From Turneriella parva (GTDB lineage: Bacteria; Spirochaetota; Leptospiria; Turneriellales; Turneriellaceae): a stretch of DNA of 64,000 nt. Both the position numbers and the translations under genes were made by a program. The stretch spans positions 1 to 64,000 of the forward strand of contig DYPL01000002.1 in the NCBI GenBank assembly GCA_020719945.1. The letters run 5' to 3'. Under the pieces are notes generated by a model that was not told the DNA's origin, made no database searches, and saw only the letters and a list, made by a program, of their open reading frames with translations. This document shows positions 53,591 through 64,000 of this stretch, piece by piece (position 1 is the first letter of the stretch; the number at the start of each line of letters is the position of its first letter).

Positions 53591-54874
53591 TTAGAGAATT
53601 TCCAGGGACAGCAACTCTTCCAGGGTTTGCGGTCTACGGATTACTGAAATAGTTTCACTGCTGTCAAAGGCTATTTCGGGAATCAAGGGGCGAGTGTTGT
53701 AAATGCTTCCCATAGTTGCTCCATATGCACCTGCATGGAGAATGGCAAGTCGGTCCCCTTCGCTTAACTCTGGAGATTCTGTCTGACGGCTAAAATAATC
53801 GGTCGATTCACAGATAGGGCCAGCTATGTCCACTTTGAAAATTTGATGCTTTTCGCGAACGGGATAAATGGGGTGTACGGCTCCATAGAGCGCGGGACGC
53901 ATTAAGTCACCCATACCGGCATCTGTGATCGCAATCGAAAATCCGGTTTTCTCTTTTTTGTAGGTTACATTTGTAATGAGTACTCCTGATGGGGCCGAAA
54001 TAAATCTACCCGGTTCAAAATACAATTTCCATGGCAAAGGGCGAAAAGCGTGAAGCCCTTTAGACAGGGTTTCGAGAGAAAATTCTTCCGGAACTTTCTT
54101 TGAATAGGGATTCTGCTTATAATCGATTCCAAATCCGCCTCCAAGCGAAATGTATTCCAAAGGAAAACCTGCTTCTTCAATTTCCTTCGCAATTGGTATC
54201 AGCTTTCCGAGAGAGTTCAGATACGGCTGGTGATCGAGTATTTGAGATCCTATATGGGACTGTATTCCCACGAGAGAGGCATGAGAGAAACTCTTGATGA
54301 GATCCAGAGCCGCAGGAATTTCTTTTATGGCAAGGCCAAACTTATTTTCTTCTTTGCCCGTTGTAATATGTTTATGAGTATCAACATGAACATCAGGATT
54401 GATCCGAAAGGATATGCGGGCATGTTTTTGACTTTCGCTGCTGATTTGCCCAATCAGTCGAATTTCTGCCAGCGATTCAACGTGAAACGAATGAATCTGC
54501 ATGTCAATACCCAGCTGAATTTCTGCCGCAGTTTTGCCTACGCCGGCAAATACGATTCGTTCCCCTTGAAAACCTGCCCGGGCTGCCCGCACCATTTCGC
54601 CGGAAGAAACGACATCTGTCCCGAACTGCTCTTTGTGGGACAAGTGGCTAAGAAAATGAAGGTTAGAAAGAGACTTTACAGAATAGAAAAAATAATCTTC
54701 CGGAAAGTATTGTTCAAACAGGGTCGCCCTTTGGAGAAAAATATTGGTGTTGTAAAGGTAATAGGCACCTGTATAAGCGTATTTTTCTTTTAATAGTTGC
54801 GCGATTTTTTCCGTTAATCCAGAAAGGTCCGTGTTATCCCAATGTAGAGAACCGCTTATATATTCAAAAGACAT
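53591..54874 (-). CDS. lysA: Diaminopimelate decarboxylase-like enzyme
   Basis: 427 residues from the ATG at 54874. A fold-III PLP decarboxylase: PLP lysine in YFFYSVKSLSN (Lys67; family: YAvKan), FGTDVVSSGEMVRA, RINPDVHVDTHKHITTGKEENKFG (family: RvNP...h.yi.TG...sKFG), HIGSQI, ISLGGGFGI, EPGRFISA and the C-terminal GPICESTDYFS with the partner cysteine. In lysine synthesis it decarboxylates meso-diaminopimelate; related ornithine or carboxynorspermidine decarboxylases cannot be wholly excluded. No other lysine genes adjoin it except a DapF-family gene 8 kb away. Confidence 0.85.
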   Translation of the reverse strand: MSFEYISGSLHWDNTDLSGLTEKIAQLLKEKYAYTGAYYLYNTNIFLQRATLFEQYFPEDYFFYSVKSLSNLHFLSHLSHKEQFGTDVVSSGEMVRAARAGFQGERIVFAGVGKTAAEIQLGIDMQIHSFHVESLAEIRLIGQISSESQKHARISFRINPDVHVDTHKHITTGKEENKFGLAIKEIPAALDLIKSFSHASLVGIQSHIGSQILDHQPYLNSLGKLIPIAKEIEEAGFPLEYISLGGGFGIDYKQNPYSKKVPEEFSLETLSKGLHAFRPLPWKLYFEPGRFISAPSGVLITNVTYKKEKTGFSIAITDAGMGDLMRPALYGAVHPIYPVREKHQIFKVDIAGPICESTDYFSRQTESPELSEGDRLAILHAGAYGATMGSIYNTRPLIPEIAFDSSETISVIRRPQTLEELLSLEIL

Positions 54875-59177: not shown

Positions 59178-59230
59178 AGCGTTTTCAGGCTTTCTGCTTG
59201 CTCCCCTGTTTATCGGGAACTCTCTGGTGC

Positions 59231-60907
59231 ATGCTGCAGTTGTCGGTTGAGGGAAATAGAGCACACTATCGGATAGAATCTCATCAGGGGCAAATTCAGA
59301 TTTTCGCACGCAATGAAAAGCTAAATAATGATGAGAAACCACTGCTCTCACCGAGAGACCCGCAGAGGGAGGCCCAACGAGCCCTGGCCGGATTTCAGTT
59401 AAAGAAGGGATTGCTGGCCATTGTCCTTGGTGCTGCTTCTATCCCATTGTTGCAGGCTCTCCAGAAAAACAGAACGGGCGGCCATCTCGTTGTTCTCGAT
59501 GCAGATAGTGTATTGCTTCGAGAGTTGCGCAATTTAGAGCCAGATGCATTTGCCGAATCCGTTGTGGCAAGCCCGGAAGATTCAGATAGGCTTATGGATT
59601 TTCTGGAGGGGTTGACCATTGAAGAGCTGTTAGGATATAGAATTTTTACCCAGACAGGACCAGCCTCTGTAGATCCAAAATTTTATCAGGGCCAAACCGA
59701 TCTTATAAAAAGAACGTTATCATCGCGCCTATCCGATTTGTTTACCAGATTAGAGTTTGAACCCCTGTGGATTAAAAATGCGTTTATGAATCTACGCCAT
59801 ACAGACAGGGCGCATCCAGTATCTTCTTTGTTTGGATACGCCAACGGGATGCGTGCTGTGCTGGTCTCTACCGGGCCAAGTTTACGGGGGCGATTGAACT
59901 GGCTTAGAGAAAATAGGGAAAAATATTTTATTGCAAGTGTAGATTCTGCCTATCGAGTGTTGCACCGCATGGGCATAGAGCCTCATCTGATTTTTTCACT
60001 CGATGCGCAAACGTTTACGAGAAAACACTTTGCCGGTTTACCAAAAGGGAATCCCGGAAAATATCCCATCCTTGTGGCAGACTTTGTGGCCAATCCCGTT
60101 ATCGTGCGGGACTGGCGCGGACCGCTTGCTCTTTCTTTTACGGCACAGTACCACGGTAATCGCAGAGCAGTTACACCCGGTTGCGATATCATAGAGGAAG
60201 CTCTGTTGCCGCCAGAGTGGACGGGCAAAATTCCAGGAGAAATACAGTCTGGCGGATCAGTGGCAACATCGGTAATTGATCTCTTGCGGCAAATGGGGTT
60301 TTCTGAATTGGTTTTGCTCGGCCAAGATCTTGCATTTTCTTACAGAGAGATACATACCACGGGTACACACCACACCGATGCATGGCTTTCGCGCAATGTG
60401 AACCGGTTTTCTCCTTTGGAGTCCATCAATGAAAAAGTGATACGCAAGCGTGCCACTCTTCCAGCTCTTTCCATCCAGGGGAAAAAAGTGCCGTCGGACT
60501 ATATTCTATCTCTTTACAAAAAGTGGATAGAAGATGCAGCGGCGCGTTTGCCTGGGTTTCTGGTGAACGGTACCATTGAGGGGATGCCTCTTTCTGGAGT
60601 AAATGCTCTAAATACAGACGTTGAAACAATACCACAGAGCCATGGAGGCCTCCTGCAAAGATTTCTCGGTAGCCCTCTGCTGAAATCGATTTTGCGCGAT
60701 CCAGATAAGCTGATTAGAGTAGTTGCTCAAAATCAAATGCCCTCTCTGGAAAAGCGCTTGGGCAGGCAATATTCCATTCGGGAAGAACGCCTGCAGTTAG
60801 AGGATAAACCGGAAATGGTGGGCCTCAAAAACAAAAAAGAAGAGTTCGTTTTGCGGTATTTTCGCAGGCTTAGTCGGATGCTCAATTCTCCGCGAGATTC
60901 ATATTGA
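59231..60907 (+). CDS. Motility-associated (MAF/DUF115) glycosyltransferase
   Basis: 558 residues from the ATG at 59231. Belongs to the MAF/6-hydroxymethylpterin-pyrophosphokinase-like DUF115 family: AVLVSTGPSLRGRLNWLREN, FIASVDSAYRVLHRMGIEPH, IFSLDAQTFTRKHF, and SGGSVATSVIDLLRQMGFSELVLLGQDLAF. MAF proteins glycosylate flagellins and are common near spirochaete flagellar genes, though none of those is in the window. Start is 53 bp from the divergent smc start. Its end overlaps a cytochrome gene on the other strand by 26 bp. Confidence 0.9.
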   Translation: MLQLSVEGNRAHYRIESHQGQIQIFARNEKLNNDEKPLLSPRDPQREAQRALAGFQLKKGLLAIVLGAASIPLLQALQKNRTGGHLVVLDADSVLLRELRNLEPDAFAESVVASPEDSDRLMDFLEGLTIEELLGYRIFTQTGPASVDPKFYQGQTDLIKRTLSSRLSDLFTRLEFEPLWIKNAFMNLRHTDRAHPVSSLFGYANGMRAVLVSTGPSLRGRLNWLRENREKYFIASVDSAYRVLHRMGIEPHLIFSLDAQTFTRKHFAGLPKGNPGKYPILVADFVANPVIVRDWRGPLALSFTAQYHGNRRAVTPGCDIIEEALLPPEWTGKIPGEIQSGGSVATSVIDLLRQMGFSELVLLGQDLAFSYREIHTTGTHHTDAWLSRNVNRFSPLESINEKVIRKRATLPALSIQGKKVPSDYILSLYKKWIEDAAARLPGFLVNGTIEGMPLSGVNALNTDVETIPQSHGGLLQRFLGSPLLKSILRDPDKLIRVVAQNQMPSLEKRLGRQYSIREERLQLEDKPEMVGLKNKKEEFVLRYFRRLSRMLNSPRDSY

Positions 60908-61921: not shown

Positions 61922-63298
61922 ATGAACGGGAAAGATAACGAAAAAATCCAAAAGTTAATAGAGAGATTTGATTCTCCCGTACCAAGATACACATCGTACC
62001 CGACAGCGCTCGAATGGAGCGAGGAGTTTAACGCCCAATTATTCTGGAACGCTATAAAAAGCCGGGAACAAAAAGCTCCCCTGAGCGTATACGTGCATCT
62101 TCCCTTTTGCGAAAACCAGTGTTTGTACTGCGGATGCAACACTGTTATCAGCAGACAAAAAAATATTATTGATGACTATATGGACTATTTGCTGTCTGAG
62201 CTTGCGTACTACGGTGAGACAATAGGAAAAGGGATTACAGTTGAACAGCTTCATTTTGGGGGCGGAACTCCTAATTTTCTGCGCATAGAAGACTGGCAAA
62301 AACTGCTTGATTCGCTTCGGGAGATTTTTTCATTTTCAAGAGATATTGAGCAGTCTATTGAGTTAGATCCAATGGTGCTTTCTCCTGACTATCTCGAATA
62401 TTTATTTAATGAAGGTTTTAACAGGATCAGCTTTGGCATCCAGGATGTTACGCCACAGGTGCTGCGTGCTGTTAACCGACCACAGGATATAGAACACCTC
62501 GACGCTCTTATTTCTCATGCAAGGAAGCTCGGCTTTGTTTCTGTGAATCTGGATTTTATCTACGGGCTTCCCCACCAGACTATGGAAAGCTATACCGAGA
62601 ACTTCTCCTTTATCCGTAAGCATCGCCCCGACAGACTTGCATTTTTCAGTTATGCCCATATTCCCTGGATGAAGAGTAACCAGAAAAAAATGGATGAAAC
62701 GGCTCTTCCCGGACCAGAAGAAAAGCTGCGAATATATTTGCGTGTGCGTGAAGAACTGTTAAGCGACGGATATGTTCAAATAGGCATGGATCACTTTGCT
62801 CTGCCAGGGGACGAATTATCAAAAGCTCTTGCATCCCATGCGCTGCACCGCAATTTTATGGGCTATACCACCAAGCCAGAACTGGATTTGCTGGGTCTGG
62901 GAGCTTCAGCTATATCTCAAATAAATAGAGTATTTGCTCAAAATCCCGTGAAGTACAATCGCTACAAAAAAGCGATAGAAGGCGAAGAACCCCGCTTTGA
63001 AAAGGGATACGGAAAGAATGAAGAAGACGAGATGCGTTCAGAAATTATTCGCTCTATCATGGGAAGTTTCTTTTTTTCTATTTCCGGTTTTGAAAACAAA
63101 TGGAAAGTTTCATTTAAAGAACGGTTTGCGGCAGAGATGTCTGCCCTGCAGAAATTTGCAGCAGACGATCTTCTCATTATAAACGATGACAGCATTCTCC
63201 TTACTGAAAATGGTACGTTCGGCGTTCGCCATATAGCAAAAGTATTCGATGCGTATCGTAACAGGAATGCAAAGACAGGATTTTCCCGGGGAATCTAA
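61922..63298 (+). CDS. hemN: Oxygen-independent coproporphyrinogen III oxidase
   Basis: 458 residues; converts coproporphyrinogen III to protoporphyrinogen IX anaerobically via radical SAM chemistry. N-terminal VPRYTSYPTALEW is specific to true HemN, followed by the cluster motif CENQCLYCGC (Cys63, Cys67, Cys70, plus Cys72), FGGGTPNFL, the SIELDPM strand, and NRISFGIQDVTPQVL(RAV). It supports haem synthesis for the cytochromes seen here. It starts a unit with the DapF-family gene (3 nt apart). Confidence 0.95.
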   Translation: MNGKDNEKIQKLIERFDSPVPRYTSYPTALEWSEEFNAQLFWNAIKSREQKAPLSVYVHLPFCENQCLYCGCNTVISRQKNIIDDYMDYLLSELAYYGETIGKGITVEQLHFGGGTPNFLRIEDWQKLLDSLREIFSFSRDIEQSIELDPMVLSPDYLEYLFNEGFNRISFGIQDVTPQVLRAVNRPQDIEHLDALISHARKLGFVSVNLDFIYGLPHQTMESYTENFSFIRKHRPDRLAFFSYAHIPWMKSNQKKMDETALPGPEEKLRIYLRVREELLSDGYVQIGMDHFALPGDELSKALASHALHRNFMGYTTKPELDLLGLGASAISQINRVFAQNPVKYNRYKKAIEGEEPRFEKGYGKNEEDEMRSEIIRSIMGSFFFSISGFENKWKVSFKERFAAEMSALQKFAADDLLIINDDSILLTENGTFGVRHIAKVFDAYRNRNAKTGFSRGI

Positions 63299-63301
63299 AC
63301 C

Positions 63302-64000
63302 ATGAAATACTATAAATATCATGCTCTGGGAAATGATTACTTTGTTATCGATCCCAGAGAGACCAGCCTGGCATTGAGCAAAGAAAGCATTAAGCTCCTT
63401 TGCGATCGCAACTATGGCATAGGATCTGACGGTATTTTATGGGGCCCTGTCCAAAAAGAGAATGGTGATTTTGAGCTTCGCATTTTTAACCCCGATGGAT
63501 CTGAAGCAGAGAAAAGCGGAAACGGATTGCGCATTTTTGTGCGCTATCTTTTTGATCGCGGGCTCATCAGGCACGAACGTTTTATTATTCAGACCCGTGG
63601 GGGCAGAGTTTCTGCCATCGTGTATTCAAAGGACAAAATAGAAATTGATATGGGCAAACCGGATTTCAGCATTCAGGGAATTCCTGTTTCTGCTTCTAAC
63701 AAATCGGGAGAATTTGTTGAACAGGAGATAGATACTCCCTGGGGCGCGATACGTGCTACTGCTGTTTCCATGGGAAATCCCCATTGCGTGATTACTTCAG
63801 AAAATCCCACGCGGGAACTGGCAGAAAAAATTGGCCCCTGGCTGGAAATGCACTATCTGTTTCCCAACCGCACCAATGTGCAGTTTATGCAGAAAGTTGA
63901 TGATCAAAAAATTCGTATTGAAATATGGGAGCGCGGTGCAGGTTACACACTGGCTTCTGGATCTTCTTCCTGTGCGGCTGCTTCGGTTGCACATAAGCTG
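63302..64000 (+). CDS. DapF-family protein with both cysteines replaced (partial)
   Basis: 233 residues are seen; the gene runs off the right edge. It follows the diaminopimelate epimerase fold: YHALGNDYFVID, GIGSDGILWG, FNPDGSEAEKSGNGLRIF, SMGNPHCVI, and IWERGAGYTLASGSSSCAAA. In DapF the catalytic pair is Cys in MCGNG and Cys in ACGTGA; here these positions are Ser72 and Ser219. The reading was checked codon by codon (AGC; TCT). It may be a variant epimerase or another reaction on the same fold. It lies 3 nt after hemN. Lysine-pathway use is uncertain. Confidence 0.85.
   Translation, partial: MKYYKYHALGNDYFVIDPRETSLALSKESIKLLCDRNYGIGSDGILWGPVQKENGDFELRIFNPDGSEAEKSGNGLRIFVRYLFDRGLIRHERFIIQTRGGRVSAIVYSKDKIEIDMGKPDFSIQGIPVSASNKSGEFVEQEIDTPWGAIRATAVSMGNPHCVITSENPTRELAEKIGPWLEMHYLFPNRTNVQFMQKVDDQKIRIEIWERGAGYTLASGSSSCAAASVAHKL

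Follow-up and report, generated by a model that had tools for sequence, protein, structure and literature searches.

Locus and sequence of the Ser/Ser protein

The window considered here, i.e., the whole stretch of DNA that was analyzed, comprises 64,000 nucleotides from Turneriella parva (positions 1 to 64,000 of contig DYPL01000002.1, assembly GCA_020719945.1). At its end lies a gene for a homologue of diaminopimelate (DAP) epimerase, DapF, with serine codons at the positions of both catalytic cysteines (Table 1). The gene starts with the ATG at 63302, where the original prediction had placed it, runs on the plus strand without a stop to the end of the window and terminates in the contig at 64162, which gives a protein of 286 amino acids (full-length ORF in contig C97, L040:3303-4163). 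The order hemN-dapF is the same in the sister genome G001, and hemN and the Ser/Ser dapF are probably co-transcribed.

Table 1. Features of the dapF locus and of the lysA gene in the window.
Feature	Position	Strand	Basis or remark
hemN	61922..63298	+	TIGR00538 508 bits; three bases upstream of dapF
Ser/Ser dapF homologue	63302..64000 in the window, to 64162 in the contig	+	TIGR00652 215 bits; alignments to PDB DapFs
Ser72 codon AGC	63515..63517	+	position of the first catalytic cysteine
Tyr215 codon TAC	63944..63946	+	replaces the Glu normally found in the GET motif
Ser219 codon TCT	63956..63958	+	position of the second catalytic cysteine
lysA, diaminopimelate decarboxylase, consumer of meso-DAP	53600..54778	-	TIGR01048 369-371 bits; about 9 kb from dapF

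Even cut short by the end of the window, the protein is well above the cut-off of the TIGR00652 equivalog model for DapF (114.65 bits), as are Ser/Ser relatives (212 and 247 bits), and the NCBIfam models matching it are of the DapF type only. Against the model for the bifunctional DAP epimerase/glutamate racemase (NF038284) it reaches 70.6 of the 350 bits required. The residues Asn11, Asn63, Asn159, Asn192, Glu210 and Arg211, which we take from the H. influenzae DapF structures to be the contacts for the distal half of DAP, are retained in the Ser/Ser members aligned over them. In phmmer alignments to solved DapFs, Ser72 (AEKSGNG) falls on the first catalytic cysteine and Ser219 (TLASGSSSC) on the second, exactly as predicted from the window. 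The protein therefore lacks the Cys/Cys pair, and it deviates at the C from the PROSITE signature of DapF, N-x-[DN]-[GS]-[SENGFT]-x(4)-C-[GI]-N-[GA]-x-R (as quoted in PMC8225329).

Two trivial explanations had been foreseen for this. The first one, that the residues align elsewhere and true cysteines occupy the catalytic positions, is ruled out by the alignments and by the distribution of the other cysteines. Cys34 and Cys162 are invariant, yet they are found in many Cys-type DapFs too, and Cys224 is no substitute: its alignment partner is a non-catalytic position, and two members have Ser there instead. The second one is an artefact. The window stems from a draft genome in 146 contigs (2.42 Mb, rated 100% complete), and a sequencing error at both codons or a misbinned contig might be suspected, but G001 has the same gene order and a protein with 94% identity and the same Ser residues, 15 further spirochaete genomes encode Ser/Ser proteins, and dN/dS between the window genome (G000) and G001 is 0.09. 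An artefact thus has practically no probability left; as judged from the dN/dS value, purifying selection on the Ser/Ser gene is strong. The Ser/Ser pair is real, conserved and under selection.

Distribution and conservation of Ser/Ser DapFs

Seventeen of the 393 sampled Spirochaetota genomes, the window genome and G001 included, carry a DapF-type protein with Ser at both sites, and in all complete spirochaete members examined these sites read SGNG and YTLASGSS. Ser/Ser proteins are also encoded on a plasmid of Agrobacterium vitis, on a Streptomyces plasmid and on one IMG/VR viral contig; as the genome sample was confined to Spirochaetota, the spread outside the phylum is known in our data from the two plasmids and the viral contig only. 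Similar Ser/Ser DapF sequences probably also occur in gut Clostridia. In a tree of 73 DapFs calculated with the two motif stretches removed, all 18 Ser/Ser proteins lie on one side of a branch with an SH-aLRT of 99 (G084 and G095 were left out of the tree, and the long plasmid branches are less sure). The Ser/Ser subfamily suspected from the window sequence thus indeed forms a clade, even with the motif columns omitted.

The codons for the two serines differ in class within this clade. Ser72 is encoded by AGY throughout except for TCG in G362, and Ser219 by TCN throughout except for AGY in G371 and G362. A switch between AGY and TCN serine codons takes two steps, and therefore it is Ser itself that is being kept. 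These switches bear on the proposal that epimerization is real and that other groups, e.g., Tyr215, Lys71 or a bound water, serve as acid and base. Tyr215 does accompany the Ser/Ser pair in the viral-contig member and in every complete spirochaete member examined, but the two plasmid members have Leu or Ser there; position 71, mostly Lys, can also be T, Q, R or M, whereas neither serine varies in any aligned member, whichever codon class is used. We regard such a replacement of the acid/base residues as improbable.

A phage origin of the gene was considered and dropped: matches in phage records are of low identity, and one viral contig has a Ser/Ser protein. Two degenerate-pattern scans retrieved this contig and no other DapF.

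On both plasmids, the Ser/Ser dapF gene sits in a common five-gene cluster (Agrobacterium vitis, L110:1180-6837; Streptomyces, L152:814-5894) together with genes for an iron-containing redox enzyme, a 2OG-Fe dioxygenase, a molybdopterin oxidoreductase and an aldo/keto reductase. This cluster looks like a specialized-metabolite pathway.

Another departure from the Cys/Cys pair was seen in four genomes, where DapF is part of a frame of 1351-1442 amino acids (G211, L166:3884-8056; G192, L167:1124-5173; G219 and G221, 1429-1442 amino acids). In the two long frames that were scanned, DapF is fused to the C-terminus of the carbamoyl-phosphate synthase large subunit. In all four proteins, the first catalytic Cys is replaced by Ala or Gly and the second one is kept.

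The second DapF of the window genome

The original prediction allowed for a second, normal DapF elsewhere in the genome. A second homologue is indeed present, on contig C55, but its catalytic pair is Cys/Ser (AEVCGNA/TLASGTGAAA), so that it is not normal either; a Cys/Cys DapF was not found in this genome, which furthermore encodes DapB, LysA and a MurE with the DNPR motif. The second gene (L039:1895-2749) adjoins a gene related to the window gene at 59198-60907. Cys/Ser or Cys/Thr is the family-type DapF of the sampled genus Turneriella (L014, L015, L016, L018, L020, L021), and in the sampled Turneriella parva genome G005 (L016) it is the only copy. The Cys/Ser DapF of the window genome was probably inherited vertically. 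A Ser/Ser protein was seen nowhere else in the class sample, and transfer is therefore the simplest reading for the Ser/Ser gene, which was probably either gained in this way or kept where relatives lost it. Note that G001, in which PF01678 detects one DapF homologue only, was deposited as Caldithrix sp. (L005); this is apparently a mislabelling, as its position next to Turneriella parva points to a spirochaete.

Genomes with a Ser/Ser protein as sole DapF

In G058, G068, G158, G190, G362, G371 and G379, the Ser/Ser protein is the sole DapF homologue detected with PF01678. These seven are metagenome-assembled genomes with estimated completeness of 90-99%, which belong to five families and lie outside the genus of the window. 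MurE is over the cut-off in all of them; the TIGR01048 match for lysA is over the cut-off in G058, G068, G371 and G379, just under it in G158 and G190, and weak in G362. DapB is present in G058, G068, G158 and G190 together with the DNPR motif of MurE, a motif that marks meso-DAP ligases. G190 also possesses DapL (600 bits), the enzyme that delivers LL-DAP. Furthermore, the gene order in G371 is alr, Ser/Ser dapF, M20 amidohydrolase and lysA, and in G190 and G123 the Ser/Ser dapF adjoins a block of amidase, polysaccharide deacetylase, M23 peptidase and pseudouridine synthase genes; the same block of wall-enzyme genes holds a Cys/Cys dapF in G139, G085 and G135. The MurE proteins of G362, G371 and G379 (L101, L104, L102) have DEDPR instead of DNPR.

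Formation of meso-DAP by meso-DAP dehydrogenase (Ddh) was rejected, no Ddh match over the cut-off having been found in the seven genomes. A role of the Ser/Ser protein as glutamate racemase was discarded as well, since MurI matches are present in all genomes tested (in G362 and G371 slightly under the cut-off, in G050 weak).

With the rest of the pathway in place, no candidate other than the Ser/Ser protein was found for the conversion of LL- to meso-DAP in the genomes where it is the sole DapF homologue, and this setting points to a retained DAP epimerase activity; LL-DAP cell walls or another second epimerase are possible alternatives there. It likewise argues against a non-catalytic function, in which the protein would bind a ligand or partner as a decoy or regulatory paralogue. 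Such a function could be imagined, as Cys-to-Ser mutants are nearly dead (PMC8225329) and E. coli DapF also occurs in a complex with RppH (PDB 6d13). With several sole-DapF genomes encoding the rest of the pathway, and with active-site residues that belong to the best conserved in the clade, we think it very improbable.

The reading put forward first from the window sequence, a changed reaction, is the chief alternative and calls for closer consideration. In this case, one Ser would take the alpha proton and water or another group would be eliminated from a substituted diamino acid, or another substrate would be epimerized. Dehydratases with one changed residue are known in a related superfamily (PMC4113996), the 3-hydroxyproline dehydratases with a Ser/Thr or Cys/Thr pair; they carry Thr at the second site, however, and here it is Ser. 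A Cys-containing DapF is present as well in roughly half of the sampled Ser/Ser genomes, so the Ser/Ser copy could do something else there, the two plasmid members are in a cluster of oxidative enzymes, and in G379 no DapB was seen, though LysA and the Ser/Ser DapF are present. On the other hand, the listed DAP contact residues are unchanged, the gene is in an operon with lysA in G371, and in four genomes it is the sole DapF homologue beside LysA, DapB and a DNPR-type MurE. A changed reaction thus loses ground where the Ser/Ser protein stands alone with MurE, a lysA-type gene and MurI and where no Ddh is over the cut-off, i.e., in the seven genomes, and has its best prospects in genomes with two DapFs; overall, we consider it unlikely.

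Proposed function and mechanism

Instead, we favor a DAP epimerase in which two serines stand in for the thiol/thiolate pair, and assign to this reading, made from sequence and genomic context, a probability of about two thirds. The window protein would then be a DapF-family homologue predicted to work like DapF; it is placed outside the Cys/Cys DapF type because the Cys/Cys pair that defines this type is missing. The AlphaFold model of the G001 protein (94% identical; pLDDT 88.8) has the two-domain DapF fold. Its best matches in the PDB are DapFs, among them the mutants C73S and C217S, with a TM-score of 0.82-0.89 to most solved DapFs. Residues 72 and 219 are directly before helices 73-85 and 220-232; the catalytic cysteines of DapF lie at the N-terminal ends of helices, a location proposed to contribute to lowering their pKa (PMC12039745).

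In the proposed mechanism, the DapF-fold protein would bind LL-DAP and convert it to meso-DAP, with two serine hydroxyls replacing the thiol/thiolate pair: once the enzyme has closed, Ser72 and Ser219, each at the N-terminus of a helix, would flank the alpha carbon and serve as base and acid. A catalytic Ser is reported for a natural Ser/Cys hydroxyproline epimerase, a precedent for this proposal, whereas in the proline racemase superfamily a protein with a Ser/Thr pair, in which Ser acts as the base, is a dehydratase, and this argues against it (PMC4113996). Engineered Cys-to-Ser mutants of this enzyme class retain under 0.1% activity (PMC8225329), and therefore other residues of a natural Ser/Ser enzyme would have to compensate. 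Tyr215 in place of Glu, Ser221-Ser222 in place of Thr-Gly and Lys71 in place of Met are the candidates; the coupled changes Tyr215 and Ser221-Ser222 may make two-serine catalysis work, with Tyr215 and Lys71 varying in outlying Ser/Ser members. That DAP epimerases of a natural clade carry out two-base transfer of the alpha proton by two serines, without a thiol, appears to us somewhat more probable than not, and we hold it less firmly than the reading as a whole. A description of a Ser/Ser DapF was not found in our literature search, with most subscription journals outside its reach, nor did the literature searched yield a characterized enzyme of this type that has Ser at both positions.

According to current descriptions, cofactor-independent racemases depend on two cysteines that are kept as a thiol/thiolate pair. 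A Ser/Ser clade that provides the sole DapF in organisms seeming to need meso-DAP makes this two-cysteine rule directly testable, and two serines may be doing a job thought to need two cysteines. If so, a Cys thiolate/thiol pair would not be required for cofactor-independent epimerization of amino acids. DapF inhibitors that attack cysteine, e.g., aziridino-DAP, should fail on Ser/Ser enzymes. Note also that annotation pipelines label Ser/Ser proteins as DapF, and the missing catalytic residues go unnoticed.

Comparison with known enzymes

With canonical DapF (TIGR00652; H. influenzae, E. coli, Anabaena, Arabidopsis) the protein shares the fold with its two PF01678 halves, the six contact residues and a genomic context of DAP/lysine synthesis. 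It differs in that both catalytic cysteines are Ser, Glu215 is Tyr and CGTGA is SGSSS, and the Ser/Ser proteins have mostly Lys instead of Met71 and form a clade of their own. The DapF mutants C73S and C217S (PDB 2q9h, 2q9j) carry Ser at the same positions, but they are single mutants made in the laboratory, whereas the double Ser is natural here. PddB (2,4-diaminobutyrate racemase) and the histidine racemases HisR/CntK are DapF-like and cofactor-independent as well; however, they all rely on Cys/Cys, and their Ser mutants are impaired (PMC8225329, PMC11602996).

The proline racemase superfamily (ProR, HypE, t3HypD) is more distant, with a TM-score of about 0.7 and 12-16% identity as compared with the above TM-scores to most DapFs, and the protein does not belong to it. 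Nevertheless, the 4-hydroxyproline epimerase B9JQV3 (Ser/Cys) has a related fold and a natural Ser at a catalytic position; it keeps one Cys and acts on hydroxyproline, whereas the window protein is without a catalytic Cys (PMC4113996). The trans-3-hydroxyproline dehydratase B9K4G4 (Ser/Thr) resembles it in having Ser at the base position and no catalytic Cys, but has a non-catalytic Thr at the second site and dehydrates its substrate (PMC4113996), while all aligned Ser/Ser members have Ser219 at this site and are found in the context of DAP synthesis.
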